A stretch of DNA of 64,000 bases from the NCBI GenBank assembly GCA_011191875.1, contig DUFC01000034.1, forward strand, positions 1 to 64,000, in the 5' to 3' direction. The DNA comes from Dehalococcoidia bacterium. GTDB lineage: Bacteria; Chloroflexota; Dehalococcoidia; Dehalococcoidales; W498. The notes below the pieces were generated by a model, which saw nothing but the letters and a program-made list of their open reading frames with translations, was not told the DNA's origin and did not search any database. The translations under genes were made by a program, and so were the position numbers. The stretch's first letter is position 1, and the number at the start of each line of letters is the position of its first letter. Shown here in pieces: positions 41,265-63,014 of this stretch.

Positions 41265-41545
41265 CCCCCCTCTCCTCCGAGATTGCTTCGTCGTTACACT
41301 CCTCGCAAAGACAAAAGGGGGGTGTCACGGCGTTTCTCTTTTTCCCTGTCATTGCGAGTCCTTCGGTGGAAGGACGTGGCAATTCCGGTGGCGGGGTATT
41401 CCTGGTAATTGCATCGTCGCTCCACCTCCCCTCTCCTCCGAGATTGCTTCGGGGCTCTGCCCCTCGCAAAGACAAAAGTGGAGTGCCATTGCTCCTTCAC
41501 AGAAGGATAAAGGATGTGGCAATCCCGGTGGTGGGGTAAGGGGGT
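41265..41545. repeat. REP-like dispersed repeat cluster (two units)
   Basis: TCATTGCGAGTCCTTCGGTGGAAGGACGTGGCAATTCCGGTGGCGGGGTATTCC plus flanking CCTCCGAGATTGCTTCG copies. Confidence 0.8.
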
Positions 41546-46693: not shown

Positions 46694-47377
46694 ATGAACG
46701 GAATAACGATAATAATAATTGATAAGCAGGCATTTTTCCGGGCTGGTATGCACCAGGCATTGTCTCAACAATCTGAGTTCAAAATATTAGACTGTGACCC
46801 GGCTCAGGAACCATTAGAGTTAATTGAAGCCAATTCCGCTGATGTTGCCCTTCTGGACATTGACTTTCCTGCTCTCAGCGGTCTTGAACTAAGTAGAAGG
46901 ATCGCACGACGCCACCCAAATACTAGAGTTGTGATACTAAGTCCCAATCATAATGACGAGGAGCTTTTTGAGGTTATCAAAACCGGAGCGGTAGCTTACC
47001 TCAATAAGAACACCACTGCTGAAGAGCTAGTTAACATTATAAGCCGAGCCTGTCGTGGTGAATACCCTATAAATGACAGCCTTATAGCTAGACCCAAGGT
47101 GGCTGAACATGTATTAAAGCAATTTCAAGACATAGTATCAATGGGAAAAACTATGGAAACTCTAACCGCCCCCCTAACCCATAGGGAGACACAAATTCTA
47201 AACTACGTAGCCGAGGGTAACTCAAATAAACAAATCGCCCGCATTTTAGAAATCAGTGAGCAAACAATTAAGAATCATGTTAGCTCTATCCTTCGCAAGC
47301 TAAATGCTAATGATAGAGCCCATGCTGTTGCCCTGGCCATGCGCAACGGCTGGATTTTAGTGGAAGAAAAACTATAA
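46694..47377 (+). CDS. NarL/LuxR-family response regulator
   Basis: Receiver domain (DVALLDIDFPALSGLELSRR) + LuxR HTH (LTHRETQILNYVAEGNSNKQIARILEISEQTIKNHVSSILRKL). Confidence 0.92.
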   Translation: MNGITIIIIDKQAFFRAGMHQALSQQSEFKILDCDPAQEPLELIEANSADVALLDIDFPALSGLELSRRIARRHPNTRVVILSPNHNDEELFEVIKTGAVAYLNKNTTAEELVNIISRACRGEYPINDSLIARPKVAEHVLKQFQDIVSMGKTMETLTAPLTHRETQILNYVAEGNSNKQIARILEISEQTIKNHVSSILRKLNANDRAHAVALAMRNGWILVEEKL

Positions 47378-47461: not shown

Positions 47462-49870
47462 ATGAATCAGCATAATATTTGGAATACGGGCGACAACATT
47501 GACTTTCGTCAATTAGAGAACTACACTTTACTTGATAGGTTAACAGAGGAGGGTGAAGTAGGTCAATTGGAAATCGATCCGGAGCTAAAAGCCCAGATTA
47601 AAGAGTATCTGCGGCAACAGGGCTATGAAACAACCGAGGGAGCTAAACTCCTTGGGAAGTCGGGAATTGAGCATATCTTTGACATGCTGGCTCAAAGAGA
47701 CGATGGTTTTACCAGCCACACCCTTGCTGTCTGCATTGCTGTTGGGGGGAATAGGGAAATGGAGGTGGGCACTATTTTTAGCTTCGCCAATAAAGCCTAT
47801 GATACCAGCATTCATGACCGGGTTCTTATTGCCATCCCTGAACTTAGTCAAGAGGCGAAACAGTTAGCTCAAAAGCAGCGAATAAAGGTTATTGATGCAG
47901 AAAAGCTAAAGTCATTATTAGATTCAAATCCTACGCTACCAGTTAAGCCGAAGGAGCCCTTTAGGTTTGAGACAAAAGAGCAATTAGTGGAATCTTTATC
48001 CAATCTAGGCTATAGAGTTGAGGAGAAAGCCAGAGTTCGAGGCCGGTCAGGAGTTGAATATATCTTTGATATATTGGCTTATATTGACATTGACCATGTT
48101 AGTCACGGTCTAGGTATAGATTTGCTAACCGGTGAGAAGGAAGTAGGTCTAGAGCAAATATCCTTATTTGATACTAAAGCCTTCGAAGTCGGCATTAATG
48201 ATAAAGCCATTGTTGTATCGTCAGGGCTCAGCCCTGAAGCGAGGCAGTTTGCCCAACACCAGCAGATAAAAGTTCTGGAGTTAGGGCAGGAACCCATTTT
48301 TCAGCCCACGGTGACTAAGAAAAAGCCGGCTCCACCAGAGGAGAAGCCAACTAAGTCAGAGACTCCAGATGTTAAGTCCCAGGCTAAATCCTTGAGGCAT
48401 GCGCCTCAGCCCGAGGTACTACAGTTGATTCCTGAGGTTATGGCACGAAGATATAATGCTATACCCTTGAAGATATCTGGCAACACATTACACGTAGCTA
48501 TGGCAGACCCAACCGACATCTTTGCCCTGGAGGCTTTTGCTGCTCTGAGCCGGATGAGGGTTAAGACTATAGCTTCCAGTGCCAAGGAAGTCCGGGAGGC
48601 TATTGACTTTAATTATAAAGGCTATGGTGAAATTGAACAGCAGCTTTCGCGTATCTCTACCCCTGGTGACATAGTCGAAGACAACCTTGTCGTTAGTGCA
48701 TATACCGATGCTCCTCTGGCTCAGGCACTCGACCTCATTGTTGAAGAGGCAGTCAAAGCCCGCTCATCTGATATCCATATTGAGCCTGAAGAGGATAGGG
48801 TGAGGATACGTTACCGTATTGATGGTACCCTTCAGGATATGATGTCGCTACCGCTTAATGTACATTCGGCTCTCATTTCTCGAATTAAAATCCTGTCTGA
48901 TATGAATATTGCTGACCGTCATCGTCCTCAAGACGGTCAGTTCTCTACCGAGGCTAAAGGGCGGCAAATAGATGTTCGAGTAGCTACTGCTCCCACTGTT
49001 AATGGTGAGATGGCAGACCTGCGCCTTCTGGACAAGTCAATGGCTACTCTAGGATTATCTGAGCTTGGTATGCTACCCGATAGCCTAGAAAAGTATGAGA
49101 GTATGCTCAAGGTTCCCTATGGTATGATTCTGACCAGCGGTCCTACCGGTGCTGGTAAGACTACTACCCTATATGCTTCAATCAATTCTCTAGACTGCAA
49201 TGGGAGAAACGTCATTACCATTGAAGACCCTGCCGAGTATCGGTTTAAGGATATTAATCAGATTGAAGTTAATCCTCAAGCTGGCATTACCTTTGCTACC
49301 GGCTTGAAGGCTATGCTTCGTCTTGACCCCGATGTAATAATGGTAGGTGAGATACGCGATGCTGAAACAGCTGGCATAGCGGTTCAGGCAGCCTTGACCG
49401 GGCATATGATGCTATCTTCCGTCCATGCCAACGATGCTGCCGGTGTGCTCTCTCGTCTTGTTGACCTTAATATAGAGCCTTTCCTGATAGCATCAGCGGT
49501 TATTGGTGTCGTCGCTCAGCGGATGCTGCGCCGTATTTGCCCTGATTGCAACCGTCCTATTGAAGCTCCAGTAATAGAGCAGATAGCTTATGAAAAAGAA
49601 ATCGGTGAGAAACGCACTGAATTCCTGTATGGCACCGGCTGCAAGTCGTGCGCTTATACCGGTTATCTGGGTCGAACCGGAATCTTTGAGATTCTAACTA
49701 TGAGTGATGCCATAAGAACAATGCTCCTCAGTCGACCCAGTAGTAGTCAGATACGAGTGCAGGCAGTTGAAGAGGGGATGATAACGATGATGAACGACGG
49801 TATGCGTAAGGTAAAGGAGGGTATCACTACCCCATCCGAAGTGCTGCGTAGTGCTTACTCAGCCGGCTAG
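47462..49870 (+). CDS. pilB: PilB/GspE-type assembly ATPase with two N-terminal copies of a ~110-aa nuclease-fold-like domain
   Basis: ATPase core GPTGAGKTTTLYASI, DPDVIMVGEIRDAETAGIAVQAALTGHMMLSSVHAND, CPDCNRP...GCKSCAYTGYLGRTGIFEIL; unusual duplicated N-terminus (res ~40-150 and ~170-280). Confidence 0.93.
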   Translation: MNQHNIWNTGDNIDFRQLENYTLLDRLTEEGEVGQLEIDPELKAQIKEYLRQQGYETTEGAKLLGKSGIEHIFDMLAQRDDGFTSHTLAVCIAVGGNREMEVGTIFSFANKAYDTSIHDRVLIAIPELSQEAKQLAQKQRIKVIDAEKLKSLLDSNPTLPVKPKEPFRFETKEQLVESLSNLGYRVEEKARVRGRSGVEYIFDILAYIDIDHVSHGLGIDLLTGEKEVGLEQISLFDTKAFEVGINDKAIVVSSGLSPEARQFAQHQQIKVLELGQEPIFQPTVTKKKPAPPEEKPTKSETPDVKSQAKSLRHAPQPEVLQLIPEVMARRYNAIPLKISGNTLHVAMADPTDIFALEAFAALSRMRVKTIASSAKEVREAIDFNYKGYGEIEQQLSRISTPGDIVEDNLVVSAYTDAPLAQALDLIVEEAVKARSSDIHIEPEEDRVRIRYRIDGTLQDMMSLPLNVHSALISRIKILSDMNIADRHRPQDGQFSTEAKGRQIDVRVATAPTVNGEMADLRLLDKSMATLGLSELGMLPDSLEKYESMLKVPYGMILTSGPTGAGKTTTLYASINSLDCNGRNVITIEDPAEYRFKDINQIEVNPQAGITFATGLKAMLRLDPDVIMVGEIRDAETAGIAVQAALTGHMMLSSVHANDAAGVLSRLVDLNIEPFLIASAVIGVVAQRMLRRICPDCNRPIEAPVIEQIAYEKEIGEKRTEFLYGTGCKSCAYTGYLGRTGIFEILTMSDAIRTMLLSRPSSSQIRVQAVEEGMITMMNDGMRKVKEGITTPSEVLRSAYSAG

Positions 49871-49885
49871 TAACTTGGAGGTTCA

Positions 49886-51097
49886 ATGGATTACCATTAT
49901 GTAGCTTATACCGAAGATAAAAGACTGGTTAAAGGCAACCTTTCAGCTACCAGTGAGGAAGCCGCCGTTAATCTCCTCAGTTATGGTGGCTATCAAGTGG
50001 TTAGCCTGAAATCGTTCACTCCTTTTTTTAATATGGAAAAATTAGCCGCCCGCTTTTCCCGGGTAAAGCCGAGGGACATAATAATGTTTTCTCGTCAACT
50101 AGCGTTACTCCTTGAATCTGGCACTGATATTGTTGCCTCTCTAGAGCTATTACAAAGCCAGGTAACCAACCGAACCCTAAAAAAGATAATCGGCGAGATA
50201 GTTGCTGACATTCGTGGCGGCACATCGCTATCAGTAGCTCTAAGTAAACACCCCCGGGCTTTCTCCGCAATCTACTATCGGACAATAGCCGCCGGTGAGC
50301 AGGGCGGTAATCTAGAAATAGTACTGAGACAAATGGCTGATTACTTGGAGAGGGGAGTTGTCACTGAAAAGAAGATTAAAACTGCCCTGACTTATCCCAT
50401 TGTCATTGCCATTGTAGCCATTTTGGTGGTAGGGTTACTGGTTACCTTTGTTATGCCCACCTTTACCAGCCTATACACTGCCTTTGGGGCTGAATTGCCC
50501 ACAGCAACGAAGCTACTTATTATTTTATCTGATTGGCTTCTAAGTAACGGGCTTTATCTTGTGCTAGCCTTAGTAGCGGTGGTTGTGGCCGGCTTGGCTT
50601 ACATCAGAACCCCGGCCGGCAAGTACTGGTGGGACGGTTTACTGCTCAAAGCACCCATAATTGGACCTATTAATCTACTCACCCAGCTTTCCCGCTGCTG
50701 CCGAACCACCTCTCTTCTATTCAGGGTTGGCTTGCCCTTACCTGAAATCATAACTATGACCATTCAGGGTAGTAATAATAAGGTTATGGCTGAGGCTCTG
50801 ACCGATGTTCGGCAGGGATTGGTTAGAGGCGAAGGCTTATCCAAACCTATGTCAAGGAGGAAGGTCTTCCTCCCCTTGATGGTGCAGATGACCGGAGTCG
50901 GTGAGGAAACCGGCAATCTTGACAACACACTAGCCACTGTAGCCGATAGCTATGAGATGGAGGCTGACGACAGGACTAGCACGGCGGTTGGACTTATTCA
51001 ACCAGCTATGATCATTATTATAGCCTTAGTAGTTGGTTTTATTGCTATATCTCTGGTTTCAGCTATGTATTCTATCTATGGTGAGATGGGTATCTAG
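49886..51097 (+). CDS. pilC: Type IV pilus inner membrane platform protein (PilC/GspF)
   Basis: 403 aa with two T2SF domains: RDIIMFSRQLALLLESGTDIVASLELL; LSRCCRTTSLLFRVGLPLPEII. Confidence 0.93.
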   Translation: MDYHYVAYTEDKRLVKGNLSATSEEAAVNLLSYGGYQVVSLKSFTPFFNMEKLAARFSRVKPRDIIMFSRQLALLLESGTDIVASLELLQSQVTNRTLKKIIGEIVADIRGGTSLSVALSKHPRAFSAIYYRTIAAGEQGGNLEIVLRQMADYLERGVVTEKKIKTALTYPIVIAIVAILVVGLLVTFVMPTFTSLYTAFGAELPTATKLLIILSDWLLSNGLYLVLALVAVVVAGLAYIRTPAGKYWWDGLLLKAPIIGPINLLTQLSRCCRTTSLLFRVGLPLPEIITMTIQGSNNKVMAEALTDVRQGLVRGEGLSKPMSRRKVFLPLMVQMTGVGEETGNLDNTLATVADSYEMEADDRTSTAVGLIQPAMIIIIALVVGFIAISLVSAMYSIYGEMGI

Positions 51098-51110
51098 GAG
51101 GTAAGACCGA

Positions 51111-51539
51111 TTGGCTAACCAACGAAAATTTTATAGATTTTTTAGACATAGCTCTAAAGGATTTAGCCTAATCGAGGTGCTGGTAGCTTTGGCTATCCTG
51201 GGTCTAGTTGCTGCTGCCTTTTTAGGCGGTTTAGCTACTGCCAACAAAGCTATGTTCATTGCCGATAAGCGAACTACTGCTGAAAGCCTGGCTAGAACTG
51301 AAATGGAATATGTTAAGAACCAGAATTATAGTACTGCCCTTTGGGATTATGAACTTCCGTCTTCTCCTCCATCATGGGATTTGGGTCATAATCTCCCTGA
51401 AGGTTATTACGGCTATACTGTTAGTGTCGATGCCGTGCCTTTACATGCTACCGATGATGGTATCCAGAAGATAACAGTGACCGTTAGCCTAGATACATCA
51501 GTAGTAATTGAATTAGTGGACTATAAGGTAAACCGATGA
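51111..51539 (+). CDS. Prepilin-type N-terminal cleavage/methylation protein
   Basis: SSKGFSLIEVLVALAILGLVAAAFLGG. Confidence 0.88.
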   Translation: MANQRKFYRFFRHSSKGFSLIEVLVALAILGLVAAAFLGGLATANKAMFIADKRTTAESLARTEMEYVKNQNYSTALWDYELPSSPPSWDLGHNLPEGYYGYTVSVDAVPLHATDDGIQKITVTVSLDTSVVIELVDYKVNR

Positions 51540-52144
51540 TATTTAAAAAGTTAGGCTTGATAAATAAAAACCAGAGGGGTTTTACTGTGATTGAGCTTAT
51601 AGTAGCCGTGGCTATTGCCGGTATTATCGCCGGCGGCACGGCGACGACTATTTACCAGACGGTCAGCGGTAACGCCCGTAACGGCAGTCATATGACGGCT
51701 GTTCGCCAGGTGCAAACCGCTGGTTACTGGATTAGCCGCGATGCTCAGATGGCGCAACCCCCCGTTATTGTTGTTGATGATGGGGCTACTTCAGAAGTGG
51801 AGGTTCTAACCCTGTCCTGGGTAGGCTGGGAATACGACTGCAGTGGTGACACATGCGTTGATTCTCATAAAGTCCGCTATACATATGATGCTGCTAGTGA
51901 GACGCTGTGGCGTCTTGAGACAATAACTTTTGCACAATATGATAGCAATGGTGATCCTGTAGACCCACCTTCCCCACAGGACTCAACAATCTTTATTGCT
52001 GACCACATCACTGCCATATCCATTCCACCAATGGTTGATAACAAACTTACTGTACCCATAACCGCCTCGGTAACATCCTGGGTTGGTGTGGCTATAGAGA
52101 CGAGAATATATGAAATCACACCTAGACCTACTCCCACTGAATAG
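51536..52144 (+). CDS. Prepilin-like minor pseudopilin (PulJ/GspJ-like)
   Basis: NQRGFTVIELIVAVAIAGIIAGG. Confidence 0.85.
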   Translation: MIFKKLGLINKNQRGFTVIELIVAVAIAGIIAGGTATTIYQTVSGNARNGSHMTAVRQVQTAGYWISRDAQMAQPPVIVVDDGATSEVEVLTLSWVGWEYDCSGDTCVDSHKVRYTYDAASETLWRLETITFAQYDSNGDPVDPPSPQDSTIFIADHITAISIPPMVDNKLTVPITASVTSWVGVAIETRIYEITPRPTPTE

Positions 52145-52157
52145 TAACTGAAGGCAG

Positions 52158-53381
52158 GTGGCTAAGATGAATCTTTTAAAAGAAATAAACAAAGAGGAAA
52201 GTGGGCAGACTTTCATTCTAGTCTTAATCCTGTTACTGTTGGGTGGTCTTATAATTGCCTCTCTTCTAGGTTTTATGAGCACCGGGCTTACCGTTGGTCG
52301 AGTCTATGAAGAGAGGATGGATGAGCTTTACGCCGCCGATAGCGGGGTAGAAGATGCTCTTTGGCATATAAAGTATAAGAAACTAGCCACCTTATTCGTC
52401 GGCTATGACCCGAATGACTATGATACAGAATATCATTATCCTGATTCTTTAGAGGTAAACAATAAAGATGTAGATGTTGCTATACAAAATATAAATGAAA
52501 TAACTTACAGAATCGAGTCAACAGCCACCAGCCCTGATACTGGCTCCAGCACTACCATTGAATCCTATATTGAGATTCTTGATATGGATTTCTTCCTTGA
52601 TAACGCTATTACCAGTAGGGGTGCTGTCGGTCTCGGAGGTGGTGGTGAGGCTGAGTCCTACGTCTACGACGGAGATGTTGTATATTGTACAGGCGACCGA
52701 CCTCCCGATGATCAGGTGATAGCAGGACCATTGGGTATAGATGGCGAGGTTATAAATGAGTGCGTAGACTTTCCTAGCCTCCAGCAAATGTCCGCTTTCT
52801 ACCGGGAGCAAGTAAAAGACGAAACACCTTATGATGATCCTACCTGGGACCTGAAGGATGATACTAATATTGGTCCATTGTATAGAAATGGAGACCTAAA
52901 TATAATAAGCACAGGTAATAATACAGGAGTACTTCAAGGGACTGTCTTCGTTAAGGGTAACCTTAATATCGGAAAGACAAATCAAGACTTCACACTGGAC
53001 CTCAATATGAATACTATATTTGTTGAGGGCGTGATTATTAACGGCGAGTTTATTGACGGCGAGATTGACATCGGGGGCAAGTGTACCATCACCGGGACAG
53101 GATGCATTATTGCCTGGGGCGATATTTACTTTTCTCCCAAAATAAATAGCAGTCCTGATCAGTTTGTCTTCATTATGTCTATCAAAGGCACAACTACTTT
53201 TAATCCTGGTGCTCCTAGTAGTGATTTCTATGGTTCAATAGCGGGTGATATTGATGTTGGATTGTGGCCGGGTAAGAATCTCTCCTGGACACACTACCCT
53301 GGCGATTTGAACCTCCCTGGATTCGGCGACGAGCCTAATATAATATCGTCGTTACACACCTGGGAGATTAGTTTAGCGTAG
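52158..53381 (+). CDS. PilX-like pilus-associated protein
   Basis: EESGQTFILVLILLLLGGLIIASLLGFM N-terminal TM; long beta-rich C-terminus; in the pilus operon. Confidence 0.65.
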   Translation: MAKMNLLKEINKEESGQTFILVLILLLLGGLIIASLLGFMSTGLTVGRVYEERMDELYAADSGVEDALWHIKYKKLATLFVGYDPNDYDTEYHYPDSLEVNNKDVDVAIQNINEITYRIESTATSPDTGSSTTIESYIEILDMDFFLDNAITSRGAVGLGGGGEAESYVYDGDVVYCTGDRPPDDQVIAGPLGIDGEVINECVDFPSLQQMSAFYREQVKDETPYDDPTWDLKDDTNIGPLYRNGDLNIISTGNNTGVLQGTVFVKGNLNIGKTNQDFTLDLNMNTIFVEGVIINGEFIDGEIDIGGKCTITGTGCIIAWGDIYFSPKINSSPDQFVFIMSIKGTTTFNPGAPSSDFYGSIAGDIDVGLWPGKNLSWTHYPGDLNLPGFGDEPNIISSLHTWEISLA

Positions 53382-53475
53382 ATTTTTACTAGCAAGCTTA
53401 CCTGTGTAATATTAATATGTTAAGATACTGGTGTTGAAGCCGGTGATAATATGATAAAGAAAGGTAAACTAAGTA

Positions 53476-54087
53476 ATGAATATAAGTAAAACAACCTGGT
53501 TAATCCTGGGTATTGGCATTTTTATAATTGCCATCGGCATCGTTGGCTGGCTCTATCTTGAGCAGAGGAGTGAGCAGAAGACACTAACAGATAGCTTAGC
53601 GCAAGCCAATGTGATCTATCCCTCGGTTGTTTCCCAAAGAGGGGATTTGGAAAGCCAACTGACCCAATCGGAAACCGACCTGGCTGAAGCTGTGTTATTG
53701 CTGGCTGATGTAGAGGTAATATTCCCTGAATCGGTAGAGAGTATTGAATACGACGAGGAATTATTTAATATTGCTGATGATTGTGACCTGGAGATAATCG
53801 AACTCACTGCATCAGAGCCGGGTGCCTTAGAGGTGGAGAGTGTTACCTACTCTGTTACCTCTTTTACAGTAGTAGTTGAGAGTGATTATGGGTATAGTAA
53901 TAAGATAATCGTGAATAACATGCTTGACTTCGTTGACACAATAGCCACCAGCGAGTATTTCACTGACACTACTCACTTCGCCAACGCTACCATAGAGCTG
54001 GTGAATATACAGGTTCCTCAAGGTGAGGAGGAAGGAGAGCCATCGGCTACCATCAATCTGGTTATCTATGGCTATAAAGGTGAATAA
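53476..54087 (+). CDS. PilO-like bitopic membrane protein
   Basis: N-terminal TM, coiled-coil, small alpha/beta domain; position between minor pilins and the PilM-like gene. Confidence 0.6.
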   Translation: MNISKTTWLILGIGIFIIAIGIVGWLYLEQRSEQKTLTDSLAQANVIYPSVVSQRGDLESQLTQSETDLAEAVLLLADVEVIFPESVESIEYDEELFNIADDCDLEIIELTASEPGALEVESVTYSVTSFTVVVESDYGYSNKIIVNNMLDFVDTIATSEYFTDTTHFANATIELVNIQVPQGEEEGEPSATINLVIYGYKGE

Positions 54088-54089
54088 GA

Positions 54090-55550
54090 ATGGCTAAAAA
54101 AGTTACTACCCTATTTATTAGAGATGATACTATTAACCTGCTGGTAGTTGAGGGCAAGCGGGTAAAGCAGTGGGCTAGCTTACCGCTTGAGCCGGAGCTG
54201 GTCAACCAGGGGCTTATCGTTGATGAAGACCAGGTAGCCGGTAAGATCAAAGAGCTATTTAAGCTGGAAAAGGTAAGCACTAGCAATGTCATCACCGGTT
54301 TGAGCGGGCTCAATTCACTATATCGTTTGTTAAGTCTACCCGACTTGCCTGAAGCTGTAATCGCCGAGGCAATATTACGGGAAGCAAGAAGGGTGATACC
54401 AGTACCTTTGGACGAAGTCTATCTTGCCTACCAAATCCTGCCGGCACCCAAGGGAGAAAGGCGTGTTTTCCTGACCGCTTTCCCCCGTAATGTGGCTGAC
54501 ACCCTAATCAGGACGCTGCAGCAGGCAGGCATCGAGCTATATATTATGGACCTGGCCCCGTTAGCCCTGTGCCGGACTCTGGATGAGCCCAGAAGCATCA
54601 TCATAAATGCCAGGTTGGACTATCTTGACATTATAGTTATGGCAGACAGGCTTCCCCAATTAATCCGCAGGCTCGCCATGCCCACCGAGGCTGAATCTTT
54701 AGCCGAACAAATACCAACTATTAGCGAAGAGCTGGACCGAACTGTTACCTTTTATAATTCCAGTCATCAGGAAGAGCCTATAGATTCAACGATGCCTGTA
54801 TTTGTCTGCGGTGACCTGGCAGAAATACCGGATAGCTGGCAATCACTGGTTGGCAGGCTTAACTATTCAGTTTCGCCATTACCATCACCCCTGGAATTCC
54901 TTGAAGGCTTCAACCCAAACGAGTTTATGGTCAATATAGGTCTGGCTCTCAAGGAGTTATCGCTTGAGAAGTGGGGGGCGAACTCTTCATTAGTGAATTT
55001 TAATGCCCTACCTGAGGTTTACCAGGCTAAACCCATGCGTGTGTCAAATATCGCTGTCCCGATAGGCATCACCGTGGGCATTATTTTACTTGCCTGTTTG
55101 GGATTTCTGATTTATAATAGTATGGGTAATAATAACTTATTGCGTTCTGAACTGACAGATATTCAGAACGGCATTAACCAAACTCGTGGGGAAATTGCCA
55201 CATTGCAGGAGCAGATTGGACAGATAGAAGCCGGCATCGAGCCGGTGGAAACCATCACCAACATTCTTAATACCACACTTACCTCTCTTGAAGAGGGTCG
55301 TGAAGTGGTTGATGAAAATTTAAGTGCGATTGTAAATCTGTCGCCTGGAAATATAGACTTGACAAATATTAATCATGAGGGTGATACTGTAACTGTAAAC
55401 GGTATATCGCCCAAGGAGAGTTTCATTTTTAACTATGCCAGAGATTTAAGAAGCTGCGAGAGACACTTTACAGTTATCATATCATCTATTACGGCGCATA
55501 ACGAAGAGGGTGGGTTTGATTTCGTGTTTCTCCTCAAACATGGCGGGTAA
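54090..55550 (+). CDS. PilM-like actin-fold protein fused to a PilN-like TM/coiled-coil domain
   Basis: VTTLFIRDDTINLLVVEGKRVKQWASLPL...; TM IAVPIGITVGIILLACLGFLIY then coiled coil and PilN-like domain. Confidence 0.8.
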   Translation: MAKKVTTLFIRDDTINLLVVEGKRVKQWASLPLEPELVNQGLIVDEDQVAGKIKELFKLEKVSTSNVITGLSGLNSLYRLLSLPDLPEAVIAEAILREARRVIPVPLDEVYLAYQILPAPKGERRVFLTAFPRNVADTLIRTLQQAGIELYIMDLAPLALCRTLDEPRSIIINARLDYLDIIVMADRLPQLIRRLAMPTEAESLAEQIPTISEELDRTVTFYNSSHQEEPIDSTMPVFVCGDLAEIPDSWQSLVGRLNYSVSPLPSPLEFLEGFNPNEFMVNIGLALKELSLEKWGANSSLVNFNALPEVYQAKPMRVSNIAVPIGITVGIILLACLGFLIYNSMGNNNLLRSELTDIQNGINQTRGEIATLQEQIGQIEAGIEPVETITNILNTTLTSLEEGREVVDENLSAIVNLSPGNIDLTNINHEGDTVTVNGISPKESFIFNYARDLRSCERHFTVIISSITAHNEEGGFDFVFLLKHGG

Positions 55551-55561
55551 AGGGGAAAGAT

Positions 55562-56632
55562 ATGGATATTTTATCGCTACTTCATTTAGCTAAATCAAAG
55601 GATGCATCCGATGTGCACCTGGTTGTATCCAGTCCGCCACTATTACGTGTTAGAGGCACTCTTGAGCCAGTGAATGGGTCAACACCGTTAACCGCTGATG
55701 AGATAAGCCAGGCTTTTCTCCAGATAACCACCCCCAGGGAAAGGGAAGACTTCCACCAGCATATGGAGCTTGACTTCGGCTATACCTTACGTGATGTCGG
55801 TCGCCTGCGGTGTAATGCCGCTCAGCAACGTGGCGCTATCAGTCTGGCGGTGCGTCTGCTGCCACCAGTAATTCCTACCATAGATGAGCTTGAGCTACCT
55901 CAGATATTGAAGGAGCTTTCCTTAAAACCAAGAGGGCTAGTTATAATTACCGGACCTACCGGCAGTGGTAAAACGACTAGCCAGGCAGCTATGATTCAAC
56001 ACTTGAACCATAATGAGAGCCGGCATGTAGTTACCATTGAGGACCCTATTGAGTATGTCCACCCCAGCTTAAAGTGTGCCATAACCCAGCGCGAGTTAGG
56101 CAGTGATACCCTATCTTTTTCTGCCGCTCTGAAGCATGTTTTAAGACAGGACCCGGATGTTATTCTGGTAGGTGAGATGAGGGACTTGGACACGGCAGCG
56201 GCAGTGCTTACTATAGCTGAGACCGGGCACTTTATATTGTCTACCGGTCATGCCCCCAGTTGCGCTCAGGCTATGGAAAGAGTAATAGACTTATTTCCAC
56301 CCCATGAGCGCCATCTAGCCCAAGCACGGTTAGCTTCTTTGTTGGTTGCTGTGTTATGTCAAACGCTTGTACCCCGGGCTGATGGCTCGGGGAGGGTAGC
56401 TGCGGTTGAGATTATGCTGGGTAATCCGGCAGTGAAGAACCTTATCCGTGAGGGCAAAACCTACCAGTTACCTAATGTGATCCGCACTCACCGGGAAATA
56501 GGTATGATTTCACTTGACGAAGCCCTGGTTGACCTCTATCTCAAACAAACCATCAGCGGTGAAAGCCTGCTCGCTGTCTGCAATGACCGAGCCGAAGTGG
56601 AGAAGCTCATCGGCAAAATAGCTGTATACTAA
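55562..56632 (+). CDS. pilT: Twitching motility ATPase PilT
   Basis: AKSKDASDVHLVVSSPPLLRVRGTL, GPTGSGKTTSQAAMI, DPDVILVGEMRDLDTAAAVLTIAETGHFILSTGHA. Confidence 0.94.
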   Translation: MDILSLLHLAKSKDASDVHLVVSSPPLLRVRGTLEPVNGSTPLTADEISQAFLQITTPREREDFHQHMELDFGYTLRDVGRLRCNAAQQRGAISLAVRLLPPVIPTIDELELPQILKELSLKPRGLVIITGPTGSGKTTSQAAMIQHLNHNESRHVVTIEDPIEYVHPSLKCAITQRELGSDTLSFSAALKHVLRQDPDVILVGEMRDLDTAAAVLTIAETGHFILSTGHAPSCAQAMERVIDLFPPHERHLAQARLASLLVAVLCQTLVPRADGSGRVAAVEIMLGNPAVKNLIREGKTYQLPNVIRTHREIGMISLDEALVDLYLKQTISGESLLAVCNDRAEVEKLIGKIAVY

Positions 56633-57005: not shown

Positions 57006-57230
57006 ATGGCAAAGTTCCTAGTTTATTTAGAGCCGTCAGAGGAGGGTGGCTATATAGTGAGTTGCCCACAGTTGCCGGGCTGTGTTACCCAGGGTGAGAC
57101 TATAGACGAAGCTCTAGCAATGATCAAGGATGCAATTCAAGGATATATAACCTCCCTACAAAAACACGGTGAACCTGTCCCATCGAGTCTCGAAGAAAGA
57201 ATAGAAAGGGCAGAAGTCATTAGTATATGA
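57006..57230 (+). CDS. hicB: HicB-family antitoxin
   Basis: FLVYLEPSEEGGYIVSCPQLPGCVTQGETIDEALAMIKDAIQGYI. Confidence 0.9.
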   Translation: MAKFLVYLEPSEEGGYIVSCPQLPGCVTQGETIDEALAMIKDAIQGYITSLQKHGEPVPSSLEERIERAEVISI

Positions 57231-57451
57231 CCCGAATGCCAGCCTTAAAGTCAAAGGAGGTTATATCTATCCTACAAAAGGTTGGTTATTACATTGATCA
57301 TACCACAGGAAGTCATCACATTATGCGCCACCCTGACCGACATCATCGTATTCCAGTTCCTCATCACGCCAAAGACATTAAAAGAGGCGTTCTCCACTCA
57401 ATAATTAAACAGTCTGGGCTGAGTAAGCAAGAGTTCCTGTCTCTGCGCTGA
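57227..57451 (+). CDS. hicA: HicA-family mRNA interferase toxin
   Basis: LKSKEVISILQKVGYYIDHTTGSHHIMRHPDRHHRIPVPHHAKDIKRGVLHSIIKQSGLS. Confidence 0.9.
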   Translation: MTRMPALKSKEVISILQKVGYYIDHTTGSHHIMRHPDRHHRIPVPHHAKDIKRGVLHSIIKQSGLSKQEFLSLR

Positions 57452-58041: not shown

Positions 58042-58431
58042 TCAACTAGTCCCTGACACAGTTACTAGGCCATCTATACTAATGTCATAAGCCTGTATCA
58101 GCGGGTATTGTCCACCCAATAGGTAATTATCCAGAGTGTATTCTGTGCCGTTAACTGTAGCCTTAACCCCCTCAACATCAGTCTTTGTCTGAATATCAAA
58201 GTAACTTTGGTCTAATGTGTGTTTCCCCGCATCGGCAAAGAGCGCCAGCACTGCTGTCTGAACATTGTGCTCATCGGTGTCCTTGGACTCTTGCTCGCCC
58301 CTGCCGATGAACTGGATGACATTAGGGACAGCTATTGCGACCAGCAAACCAAGGAGAGCAATCACCACCAGCAGCTCAACCAGGGTAAAGCCTTTTTCGC
58401 CATGACGCCACGGTTTTAATAATTTTCTCAT
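58042..58431 (-). CDS. Type IV major-pilin-like prepilin
   Basis: GEKGFTLVELLVVIALLGLLVAIAVPNV. Confidence 0.9.
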   Translation of the reverse strand: MRKLLKPWRHGEKGFTLVELLVVIALLGLLVAIAVPNVIQFIGRGEQESKDTDEHNVQTAVLALFADAGKHTLDQSYFDIQTKTDVEGVKATVNGTEYTLDNYLLGGQYPLIQAYDISIDGLVTVSGTS

Positions 58432-58694
58432 TACTTAACGACCTGTCAATTACTATGATTAGTTAATGTATTAACTCCAGCCCAGTAATGGTGGTATATT
58501 AGCATACTTATAGCTGTTTCACCAGCCTCAGGGAGACAAAACACCTGATACAGAAAGGCTCATCAGCAGGGTATTTATAAAGTAACCTTGCCGATGAGTC
58601 TCCCTTAGTCGGATTTCACCCATACTGCTCCTGCTTTCTCTAACGGAGCCCGCACTATACCTGTCATCCGCTTACTTATCTTGATTGAGTGGGT

Positions 58695-59075
58695 TTAGGC
58701 CAATGGATGGCCGGTTCCAGGTGTTACGTGTCCTTCAGCATTAACGTTATACTGGTACTCAGTATCATTAATCAAATATGTACCCGTTTCATCAGGATCA
58801 CCACCTGAGCCTAGAGCCTCGATTATTTCATCGGTCTCTACTGCACATACACCGATGGTGCCCTCAGCTACTGCCGCCGTCGCTGCCACCTGCACATTAG
58901 CCAGTTCCGTCAGAGCCGCCTCCGTTTCACCCCGGCCGATGAACTTGGCCACAGCAGGGATAGCTACCGCTGCCAGGACACCCAGAATGGCAACCACTAC
59001 CAGCAGCTCAATCAGGGTGAAGCCCTTCTCGCCATAGCGAAATGACTTCCTGAGCCTCCTCATAAATCTACTCAT
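58695..59075 (-). CDS. Type IV major-pilin-like prepilin
   Basis: GEKGFTLIELLVVVAILGVLAAVAIPAV. Confidence 0.9.
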   Translation of the reverse strand: MSRFMRRLRKSFRYGEKGFTLIELLVVVAILGVLAAVAIPAVAKFIGRGETEAALTELANVQVAATAAVAEGTIGVCAVETDEIIEALGSGGDPDETGTYLINDTEYQYNVNAEGHVTPGTGHPLA

Positions 59076-59454: not shown

Positions 59455-60852
59455 CTACCTAGATGGCTCTAGCTGCTCAACCTCAAACACCCTGATTCGC
59501 TGCCTTTGAGCAAACTGCCTGGCTTCCTTGATAAGTCCGGGGACGGCAATGAAGACCTTGTCCAAGATACCTATATCGTAGGCTTTATTATCAAAATCAA
59601 ATACTTTATCTAATCCCACCGGCTCTTCCACCACCTCAACACCGATAGCAACATGATGAGTAATAATGCCATCATCCCTGGTTGCCAGTATGTCTATACT
59701 GTGTTCCGCTCCTGACCTCCCCTTCATGGTGGCATTTTCCTGTACTTCATAGCTACGCTGTTGCAAATACTCTATAAGCTGTGGCTTAGACTTGAATTCA
59801 AAGGGCTCTCTTGTTACCTCGCCTGGCAGAGGAACACTGCTAGCCAGGACTGTCTCCAAATCCTTGACCTCAAGTACCCTTATCCTCTGCTGGCCGGCAA
59901 ACTTCTCAGCTTCCTTATTTAAACCGGGGATGACAACCAGGACTTTATCATGAATACCAATATCATAAGCTTTATCATCAAAGTCAAATATCTGCTCCAA
60001 TCCTACCTTATACTCAGCTACGGCAACGCCGATAGCTACATTATAAGCAACAATGCCATCATCCCTGGTAGCCAGTATATCTATACTGTGTTCCGCCCCT
60101 GACCTCCCCTTTGTGGTGGCATTTTCCTGTACTTCGTAGCCGCGCTGTTGTAAAAACTCTGTGAGCTTTGATTTAGGCTCCAGTTCAAACTCAAGCCAGC
60201 CTCTTTTTGCCTCATTTAAACTATAAGAATAGATTTTTACTTCACTAACTCTATCCTCAGCGGTAAGTGCCGAGCATTTCAGACAGCGCCATTTTATTAC
60301 GGGTACGCTAAATACCTCATCGCAATCATGGCACTTACGTAGCAGCCCCAGGCTCTGATAGTCGGTGCCGATAGTCTTCAGCTCCTGTTGGCACTTGGGA
60401 CATATGTATTTACCCCTGGATATAAATTCCTCTTCAAGTCCAACAAATTTACAGGGAAAATGCTCGAATACCCTACCTCGGCCAATATTCCCTGAGCCAC
60501 ATTTAGGACAATGGGTAGTTGGTCTTAAACTTACTGACTGGCACTGGGGACAGCGGAGGAACTTATCAAAGAAGTCCCTTTTCAGCATGCCTTTGTCAGC
60601 CAGGGATTCCAGAACTGATAATACTTCCTCTGTCTCTATCCCCAATACTTTCTCAGCGTCTGGATAGACAAAGCCCAGCTCACTGGTGAAATCAAACGCC
60701 GGTCTAATATCAACAATCTTCCCCGCCAGTATTTCCGCCACCAGTTTCATCGCTTTTTCATTTTCCCCAAGTTCTATGGCCAGTGGTGTACCTGCTACCT
60801 CTGGGGTATCATTTATAGGTTTATTTTCTTTTACCAACTTCTTCCTCCACAC
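59455..60852 (-). CDS. Zinc-ribbon (TackOD1-like) protein with two C-terminal copies of the PilB N-terminal domain
   Basis: Cys pairs CPQCQSVSLRPTTHCPKCGS, ICPKCQQ, KCHDCDE, RCLKCSA; then two near-identical GRSGAEHSIDILATRDDG... domains. Confidence 0.8.
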   Translation of the reverse strand: MWRKKLVKENKPINDTPEVAGTPLAIELGENEKAMKLVAEILAGKIVDIRPAFDFTSELGFVYPDAEKVLGIETEEVLSVLESLADKGMLKRDFFDKFLRCPQCQSVSLRPTTHCPKCGSGNIGRGRVFEHFPCKFVGLEEEFISRGKYICPKCQQELKTIGTDYQSLGLLRKCHDCDEVFSVPVIKWRCLKCSALTAEDRVSEVKIYSYSLNEAKRGWLEFELEPKSKLTEFLQQRGYEVQENATTKGRSGAEHSIDILATRDDGIVAYNVAIGVAVAEYKVGLEQIFDFDDKAYDIGIHDKVLVVIPGLNKEAEKFAGQQRIRVLEVKDLETVLASSVPLPGEVTREPFEFKSKPQLIEYLQQRSYEVQENATMKGRSGAEHSIDILATRDDGIITHHVAIGVEVVEEPVGLDKVFDFDNKAYDIGILDKVFIAVPGLIKEARQFAQRQRIRVFEVEQLEPSR

Positions 60853-61230: not shown

Positions 61231-61322
61231 CCTTTCGCTCCGCTCTAAATCCGTGATGGGTAGAGGCAAATATATAATCCCTATTGACTATACTGCTAGA
61301 AGCATGCAAAATAGAGACCGAT

Positions 61323-62129
61323 ATGGAAGCCGTTTTTATAGTCGTTTTCATTTTATTAGGAATAACTGTGGCTAGCTTCCTAAATGTTTGCATTGACCGT
61401 TTACCCAGTAACGAGTCGCTTCTTTTCCCCGCCTCCCACTGTTCTTCTTGCCATCATCGTCTATCCATAAAAGACCTGATTCCTGTTTTTAGCTACTTAT
61501 GGCTACATGGTCGTTGTCGCTTCTGCCAGGCTCTTATTCCCAGACGCCTACTCTGGGTGGAGATTGGCACCGGGCTCTTGTTTGGTTACCTCTATTGGCA
61601 CTATGGTTTGAGCATTGAATTAGCAGTTGCTGCCTTTTACTGCTGCCTGTTCATCGTTCTTATGGTTATTGATTTGGAGCACGGGCTTATTCTCAATAAG
61701 ATAGTTTATCCGGCGGTATTAGTATGTATAATTATCAGTGTTTTTTCACCCCCGTCTGAGGTGGCTCATATTCATGGGGCAGCAGCCTTACTCCTGAGCA
61801 ACTTACCTCAGTTAGGGATTGTTCAAGCTGCTATCGGTGGCAGCATTGGACTGGTGCTGTTTTTTCTTATAGTTGTCATTTCCAAGGGGGGAATGGGTTG
61901 GGGAGATGTTAAAATGGCAGCCCTAATAGGTATAGTTACCGGCTATTTGATACCTGTTGCTATATTACTATCGGTAATTTTAGGTGGTTTTGTAGCCGTG
62001 ATTCTACTCCTGTTCAAGATAAAGAAGCGTAAGGAGGGCATCCCCTTCGGTCCCTTTCTCTCTCTAGCCACTATAGTTACCTTACTGTTTGGTGGTAACA
62101 TCCTCAACTGGTACCTGGGTCTATTTTAA
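61323..62129 (+). CDS. pilD: Prepilin peptidase (A24 family)
   Basis: SFLNVCIDRLP, CSSCHHRLSIKDLIPVFSYLWLHGRCRFC, MVIDLEHGLILNKIVYP, GGMGWGDVKMAALIG. ATG at 61323 preferred over 61284. Confidence 0.93.
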   Translation: MEAVFIVVFILLGITVASFLNVCIDRLPSNESLLFPASHCSSCHHRLSIKDLIPVFSYLWLHGRCRFCQALIPRRLLWVEIGTGLLFGYLYWHYGLSIELAVAAFYCCLFIVLMVIDLEHGLILNKIVYPAVLVCIIISVFSPPSEVAHIHGAAALLLSNLPQLGIVQAAIGGSIGLVLFFLIVVISKGGMGWGDVKMAALIGIVTGYLIPVAILLSVILGGFVAVILLLFKIKKRKEGIPFGPFLSLATIVTLLFGGNILNWYLGLF

Positions 62130-62236: not shown

Positions 62237-62506
62237 ATGAGTACAGAACGTCGAAGGTCGAGCATTGAAGTAATAGCTGATATGTTACGGCTGGGTGAAG
62301 CGGGCAAGACTGAGATAATGTATAGCGCCAATATGAGCTATTTCCAATTACAGAAGTATCTCAAATTTCTGTTACAACTAGAACTAATAGATAAAGTAAC
62401 TATGGGGAATCCAAGTGTAACCTATAGAGTTACCAAGAAAGGACTCAGGCTACTAAGAAATATAGATAGTATCCTAGAAGTGCTTGAGTTAAGGGAGCAA
62501 TACTGA
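62237..62506 (+). CDS. Winged-helix DNA-binding protein (archaeal HTH_45-like)
   Basis: RSSIEVIADMLRLGEAGKTEIMYSANMSYFQLQKYLKFLLQLELIDKV...YRVTKKGLRLL. Confidence 0.8.
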   Translation: MSTERRRSSIEVIADMLRLGEAGKTEIMYSANMSYFQLQKYLKFLLQLELIDKVTMGNPSVTYRVTKKGLRLLRNIDSILEVLELREQY

Positions 62507-62657
62507 CCTTTAGGCTTTTAGAGTTTTTCAAATAAATATGGAGAGAGACAAGTAGGAGGCGTTACCAATATTTATCAGTAAGGTGGTAGCGCTAAAAATT
62601 ATCCAAAGCCTTAAAATATTACTACCGATAAAGACCAACAGTAGAGGGAGAGACTTC

Positions 62658-63014
62658 ATGAGTGAAAATAGAATGCTAATAGTGCCAACGGAGCTTGTCA
62701 ATAAGATTGATGAGAACCGTGGAGACATGAGTCAAGCTGAATTCATTGAATTTTTAATTGATAGTCAACTAAAACAGAGAGCAAAAGAACATGATGAGAA
62801 GCAGTATGCCACCAAGGACGAGATTCTTTCTTTTGAGCAGGATATAAAGAAACTCCTTAGAACTTTCCTTGACTTTTTTGTTAGCTACGGACTTGAACTG
62901 GGCAAACAATCACCAAAATCTGAGTTTGAAGAGCTAACTAGCCGACTGCATGAGCTTGAAAACGACCTAGCCCCCGAAAGCGAGGGCAAAGAGGCTAAGA
63001 TTAAATGGAAATAG
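62658..63014 (+). CDS. Putative ribbon-helix-helix-like protein with C-terminal helical region
   Basis: SENRMLIVPTELVNKIDENRGDMSQAEFIEFLIDSQL resembles an RHH fold; RBS GAGGGAGAG before the ATG at 62658. Confidence 0.6.
   Translation: MSENRMLIVPTELVNKIDENRGDMSQAEFIEFLIDSQLKQRAKEHDEKQYATKDEILSFEQDIKKLLRTFLDFFVSYGLELGKQSPKSEFEELTSRLHELENDLAPESEGKEAKIKWK

Follow-up and report, generated by a model that had tools for sequence, protein, structure and literature searches.

Paired, apparently inactive restriction-endonuclease-fold domains on a TackOD1 zinc-ribbon protein and on the type IV pilus assembly ATPase of Dehalococcoidia

The type IV pilus locus in a 64,000-nucleotide stretch of Dehalococcoidia DNA (the whole of which is called the window below) encodes two proteins, the assembly ATPase PilB and a TackOD1 zinc-ribbon protein, that each carry a tandem pair of one and the same domain. 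This repeat is an Mrr-type PD-(D/E)XK restriction endonuclease fold without the ExK catalytic pair, and we call it iRE. We judge the chances to be about even (probability roughly 0.5) that the iRE pair serves the pilus motor as a regulatory input without catalysis, in cis where the pair is part of PilB and in trans where it is part of the TackOD1 protein.

The TackOD1-iRE-iRE gene (59455–60852, minus strand, read as an open reading frame with a GTG start) encodes 465 amino acids. Residues 31–212 (60217–60762, minus strand) match the Pfam TackOD1 model PF18551 with 146.4 bits against a cut-off of 32 (E-values of 9.6e-43 and 7.7e-44), which upholds the sequence-only reading's description of the N-terminal half as TackOD1-like. 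That reading counted four Cys-pair zinc motifs; there are in fact five CXXC motifs (at residues 101, 115, 151, 174 and 190) and one HXXC motif (at residue 131), the pattern given for TackOD1 in PMC5847659, and these cysteines suggest that the domain binds zinc. The C-terminal half holds two 105-amino-acid repeats that start at residues 229 and 358. Copy 1 (59851–60168, minus strand) was recognized by Mrr_cat, the iRE profile, the PD-(D/E)XK fold and its active-site columns, and copy 2 (59461–59781, minus strand) by the iRE profile and the structure model. The two are identical at 71% of amino acids and 75% of nucleotides over 104 codons, so they are clearly duplicated, yet not near-identical as had been stated.

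PilB (47462–49870, plus strand, 802 amino acids) matches T2SSE (E = 3.6e-123), Mrr_cat (2.1e-9) and NA-iREase1 (PF22722; 4.9e-6, at 26.9 bits just under the cut-off of 27). Its own iRE copies, found with the iRE profile and in the model, lie at residues 45–151 (47594–47914, plus strand) and 174–276 (47981–48289, plus strand), ahead of a Pfam-defined core that comprises the C-terminal part of MshEN and the T2SSE ATPase (48392–49861, plus strand). These copies are 38–47% identical to the other copies and match the profile with E-values of 1e-49 to 1e-53, a homology far beyond chance. The earlier claims that the repeats are homologous to those of PilB, and that two genes of one pilus locus hold four copies of the domain, two in PilB and two in the TackOD1 protein, were thus both borne out.

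That the window PilB is a type IV pilus assembly ATPase is clear from its T2SSE domain and its setting amid PilC, PilT, PilM, prepilins and PilD. Upstream of pilB is a NarL/LuxR-type response regulator gene (46694–47377, plus strand; domain search and synteny), which has the same position in eight other iRE-PilB loci (L088–L093, L097 and L100). Downstream, Pfam identifies pilC, minor pilins, PilX-like, PilO-like and PilM/N genes and pilT (49886–56632, plus strand). The TackOD1 gene is on the opposite strand, 9.6 kb from pilB, with two prepilin genes downstream of it on its own strand (58042–59075, minus strand; N_methyl E = 1.5e-8 and 1.4e-9) and the divergent prepilin peptidase gene pilD on its other side (61284–62129, plus strand; A24_N_bact and Peptidase_A24). 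Three further features of this region were seen. A HicB antitoxin and HicA toxin pair (57006–57451, plus strand; Pfam E = 2.5e-12 and 7.7e-20) lies between pilT and the prepilin genes. The gene at 62237–62506 (plus strand) encodes a bacterial protein above the NCBIfam cut-off for the archaeal Sso10a chromatin protein (63.7 versus 60), and in relatives this gene and the next (62583–63014) repeatedly turn up next to pilD or to the regulator gene of pilB (L088, L089, L090, L104 and L106). A dispersed, possibly MITE-like element of about 32 bp (GATTGCTTCG...CCTCGCAATGAC) has six copies in the window where none is expected (plus strand, at 41281, 41442, 43358, 57753, 57851 and 61078), some of them near 41–43 kb and the others in the stretches that surround the TackOD1 and pilin genes.

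The sequence-only reading passed over the identity of the repeat as a dead PD-(D/E)XK nuclease. Mrr_cat matches above the Pfam cut-off cover the TackOD1 protein repeats and the PilB N-terminus. AlphaFold2 was run on both; each model averages a pLDDT of 76, with 75–95 in most blocks of the repeats and low confidence at residues 113–146 of the TackOD1 protein, and in each the repeat has a helix-strand-strand-strand-helix-strand core. The top Foldseek match in the PDB for both models is AF1548 (1y88, E = 3e-6), and further matches, many of which are PD-(D/E)XK folds, include EndoMS, MspJI/AspBHI, Can2/Cdn1 and RPB5; we discounted some others that extend over hundreds of columns with a large rmsd, for instance that of the PilB model to APOBEC3G. 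When PDB sequences were searched, the iRE profile matched none of them; the matches came from the fold search.

The active site was compared in an alignment of 97 copies, 96 of them iRE and the last an active-type homologue from the same class (L095). The (D/E/Q)xK motif is present in none of the 96 iRE copies, while L095 has the D, the E and the K; copy 1 of the window's TackOD1 protein, for example, retains the catalytic D and has AIGVA in place of the ExK. The catalytic Asp is retained in 89% of bacterial iRE copies, and a KxxD signature on the helix after the lost ExK is conserved in bacteria and archaea (Lys in 86% and Asp in 92% of the bacterial copies; Lys in 10 and Asp in 8 of the 11 archaeal ones). 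Compared with Mrr_cat and other PD-(D/E)XK nucleases (PF04471; AF1548, 1y88), iRE is alike in fold and sequence family and mostly retains the catalytic Asp, but it is without the ExK pair and has the new conserved KxxD. From its missing catalytic residues iRE appears to be a pseudo-nuclease. An active nuclease, with the TackOD1 protein or PilB processing DNA in uptake or defence, might be read from the above-cut-off Mrr_cat matches, but the loss of ExK from 96 of 96 copies and PADLOC matches that are only weak led us to reject it, the neighbours moreover being pilus genes, and we consider it extremely improbable.

Dead restriction endonuclease folds joined to NTPases are also found in NA-iREase1 (PF22722) and among the inactive restriction endonucleases of conflict systems (PMC12839542, PMC10853773), and inactive restriction endonucleases so paired have been proposed to be nucleotide sensors (PMC12839542). 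The NTPase partner differs, however: it is a secretion motor for iRE and a STAND protein, a helicase or Orc/CDC6 in the conflict systems. No association of iRE with a NACHT/STAND NTPase was found, its partners being the T2SSE ATPase or TackOD1.

How iRE is distributed was surveyed in 294 Dehalococcoidia genomes. TackOD1 is above cut-off in 19 of them, and among 400 genomes of the phylum none exceeded the cut-off outside Dehalococcoidia. The iRE profile matches 43 of the 294, with two exceptions to what follows, an unrelated active-type nuclease in G205 and, in G101, a decayed remnant of 36 amino acids that precedes the PilB-core match in the frame of pilB. In the remaining 41 genomes iRE occurs only in PilB or TackOD1 proteins and nearly always as a tandem pair, a placement that is confirmed in fully read loci and assigned by frame length and position in the rest. 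PilB was found in 101 of the 294 genomes; it was matched in 39 of the 41 iRE genomes versus 62 of the 253 others (Fisher p = 1e-18, ignoring relatedness), and a pilB at a contig end in G210 (L097) brings the former figure to 40 of 41. The genomes with iRE-PilB include several complete ones from the order to which the window belongs, so laboratory isolates may carry this form.

Thus, the earlier proposal of a dedicated system stands insofar as the domain is confined to PilB and TackOD1 proteins in the class, bar one nuclease and one remnant, and tracks genomes that have PilB. An obligatory four-copy partnership does not hold: 13 genomes have both proteins, 22 have iRE-PilB alone and 6 have TackOD1-iRE alone, and strict co-occurrence of the two was dropped on these counts. 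The same confinement bears on the idea that a common stand-alone module was acquired by chance in two pilus-locus genes. The Mrr_cat family is indeed common (10 of 14 control genomes) and small iRE-like stand-alone proteins exist in archaea, but within the class the subfamily is found nowhere else, apart from the two exceptions above, and all ten strong archaeal matches are TackOD1 fusions (below); chance acquisition was rejected within Dehalococcoidia on the first of these grounds, and overall we hold it to be very improbable.

MshEN is a c-di-GMP-binding N-terminal module of PilB, GspE and MshE ATPases. The iRE pair stands at the same N-terminal place on the assembly ATPase, although the two folds are unrelated and MshEN motifs are missing from every iRE-PilB examined; in the window PilB no N-terminal MshEN-type motifs precede the core (a tandem LGxxLxxxG...Q was sought). 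PilB N-termini sampled by frame length, and so not at random, comprised 18 of MshEN type, 19 with the iRE pair and 21 with neither, five of these last being beside a TackOD1-iRE-iRE gene. In this non-random sample the MshEN-type N-terminus is found in 0 of 19 iRE-PilBs, 0 of 5 TackOD1-linked short PilBs and 18 of 34 others. In a tree of PilB cores a single clade (support 100/99) unites every sampled iRE-PilB and every TackOD1-linked short PilB with 7 further short PilBs, and this clade is nested in a 35-row clade without MshEN (100/99). By this topology MshEN was lost once or a few times, after which iRE was fused to PilB and was itself lost on several occasions; it does not show many independent replacements, and the replacement of MshEN is largely a property of one PilB clade. 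The module is evidently dispensable, since the short PilBs of L167–L171 and L173 have neither iRE nor MshEN. We dropped the idea that iRE took the place of MshEN through loss of c-di-GMP, since GGDEF proteins are still encoded in iRE genomes. Some PilBs are larger: a 1098-amino-acid PilB in genome G086 (L081, 1570–4866) has four iRE domains, in two pairs, ahead of the ATPase core (the gene upstream of it has weak Roadblock-type matches, to which we give no weight), and PilBs of 1136–1282 amino acids in L082, L083 and L084 contain a further stretch of several hundred residues that separates the iRE pair from the core.

In a tree of iRE domains, which is built on a short alignment and has many poorly supported forks, the PilB copies 1 cluster together, as do the PilB copies 2, and PilB copy 2 shares a clade with copy 2 from some of the TackOD1 proteins (99/93). 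This grouping suggests that the pair is older than its sharing between pilB and the TackOD1 gene. In the remaining TackOD1 proteins, among them that of the window, the two copies are closer to one another, consistent with a duplication or gene conversion at a later time. The supported copy 2 clade also favours a more direct coupling, in which the iRE pairs of TackOD1 proteins bind those of PilB homotypically and so tether a signalling adaptor to the motor, as does the fact that both proteins carry the same domain pair and that iRE-PilB is present in 13 of the 19 TackOD1 genomes (p = 6e-4 within PilB genomes, relatedness ignored). However, the 22 genomes with iRE-PilB and no TackOD1 and the 6 with TackOD1-iRE and no iRE-PilB show that each protein often occurs without the iRE of the other, so such a contact cannot be the general function, and we think the direct coupling somewhat unlikely.

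The reading of iRE as an input module draws further on gene neighbourhoods. TackOD1 genes adjoin pilB, pilT, pilA or pilD in most genomes with readable surroundings: the TackOD1-iRE-iRE gene is 9–27 bp upstream of a short pilB in five genomes (L036, L038, L039, L040 and L045), right behind pilT in L034, L035, L044, L046 and L050, next to pilA in L032, L033, L037, L104, L105 and L106, and next to pilD in L042, L104 and L106. Response-regulator forms with the architecture REC-linker-TackOD1-iRE-iRE exist in L047 and L048 (Response_reg E = 3.9e-11 in L048), where the neighbours are glycosyltransferase and sugar-nucleotide genes, not pilus genes. Together, the restriction of iRE to PilB and TackOD1 proteins, the linkage to pilus genes and the response-regulator forms make plausible the earlier suggestion of a signalling adaptor for the assembly ATPase. 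In L041 the TackOD1 gene is separated from pilB by three related genes for proteins of about 141–146 amino acids.

Nucleic-acid binding is frequent among zinc ribbons and PD-(D/E)XK folds. The TackOD1 protein could for that reason be a nucleic-acid-binding regulator of pilin expression, with the PilB copies a separate use of the domain, and its gene does adjoin pilin genes and TackOD1 is fused to an HTH/AsnC regulator in L110 and to REC elsewhere. We nevertheless consider this improbable, since a Pfam search found no HTH in the window's TackOD1 protein and such a role leaves unexplained both the same pair on PilB and the position of the TackOD1 gene directly beside pilB or pilT in many genomes.

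Archaeal relatives are already in the literature. TackOD1 (PF18551, arCOG06883) is described in two papers (PMC5847659, PMC4858521) as an archaeal output domain in type IV pilus loci and response regulators, and TackOD1 proteins in thaumarchaeal type IV pilus loci were published there in 2016 and 2018 (PMC4858521 and PMC5847659, respectively). The Dehalococcoidia form shares with these the HMM domain, the five CXXC and HXXC motifs, the linkage to type IV pili and, in its relatives, the REC fusions; it differs in being bacterial and in being joined to a pseudo-nuclease pair that is also on PilB. The available portions of PMC5847659 and PMC4858521 contain no mention that we found of a nuclease-fold partner of TackOD1, and the open-access literature yielded no description of TackOD1 combined with a dead nuclease and pili. 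The sequence-only reading did not recognize a described system here; for the dead-nuclease module we found no report either, but TackOD1 in archaeal pilus loci had already been published.

Among 196 genomes of the archaeal phylum that includes L110 (Ca. Sigynarchaeota), in which TackOD1 is fused to an Lrp/AsnC (HTH) regulator, TackOD1 is above cut-off in 56. Ten archaeal (Asgard-type) TackOD1 proteins carry a single C-terminal iRE, and since the strong archaeal iRE matches are TackOD1 fusions in 10 of 10 cases, TackOD1 and iRE are linked across domains of life. L158 and L162 are archaeal pilus loci with TackOD1-iRE, a T2SSE/PilB3-like ATPase and T2SSF. Archaeal TackOD1-iRE occurs outside pilus loci too; it is directly beside a Ras-like small-GTPase gene in L148, L152 and L157 (checked with Pfam in L148 and L157), and in L141 it is behind a histidine-kinase-looking gene and a gene that resembles the window's LuxR-type regulator.

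The input-module reading would work as follows. The TackOD1-iRE-iRE protein would act in the cytoplasm, not as an enzyme but as a regulator of the type IV pilus machinery, and its iRE pair would be a signal-input module, the same pair being fused to PilB at the usual N-terminal place of MshEN. Through its vestigial active-site face the pair may bind a ligand, at best guess a nucleotide or nucleic acid, or a partner protein, and this binding would set the activity of PilB, in cis when fused to it and in trans from the TackOD1 protein. The exclusive association, the position on PilB, the operon adjacency, the receiver fusions and the published sensor proposal (PMC12839542) all point to such a role. 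When TackOD1 was first described, its functions were said to be obscure (PMC5847659), and the fusion to dead nucleases, with the same domains on PilB, offers a concrete TackOD1 target, the pilus assembly ATPase. It would also give PilB a regulatory input other than MshEN and dead nucleases a use outside defence, and it suggests a mode of pilus control that has not been described. Only tentatively would we go further and suppose that TackOD1 with a dead PD-(D/E)XK domain is common to archaea and bacteria, controls pilus motors by sensing nucleotides or nucleic acid, and was grafted onto PilB in one bacterial class in place of an MshEN-type module, so that pseudo-nucleases would gate one class of pilus motor.

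The archaeal loci L214–L220 encode small stand-alone proteins of about 130–150 amino acids that are distant iRE relatives; ExK is absent from these too, and they have in common a W-(K/N)RAVGVDRL stretch.
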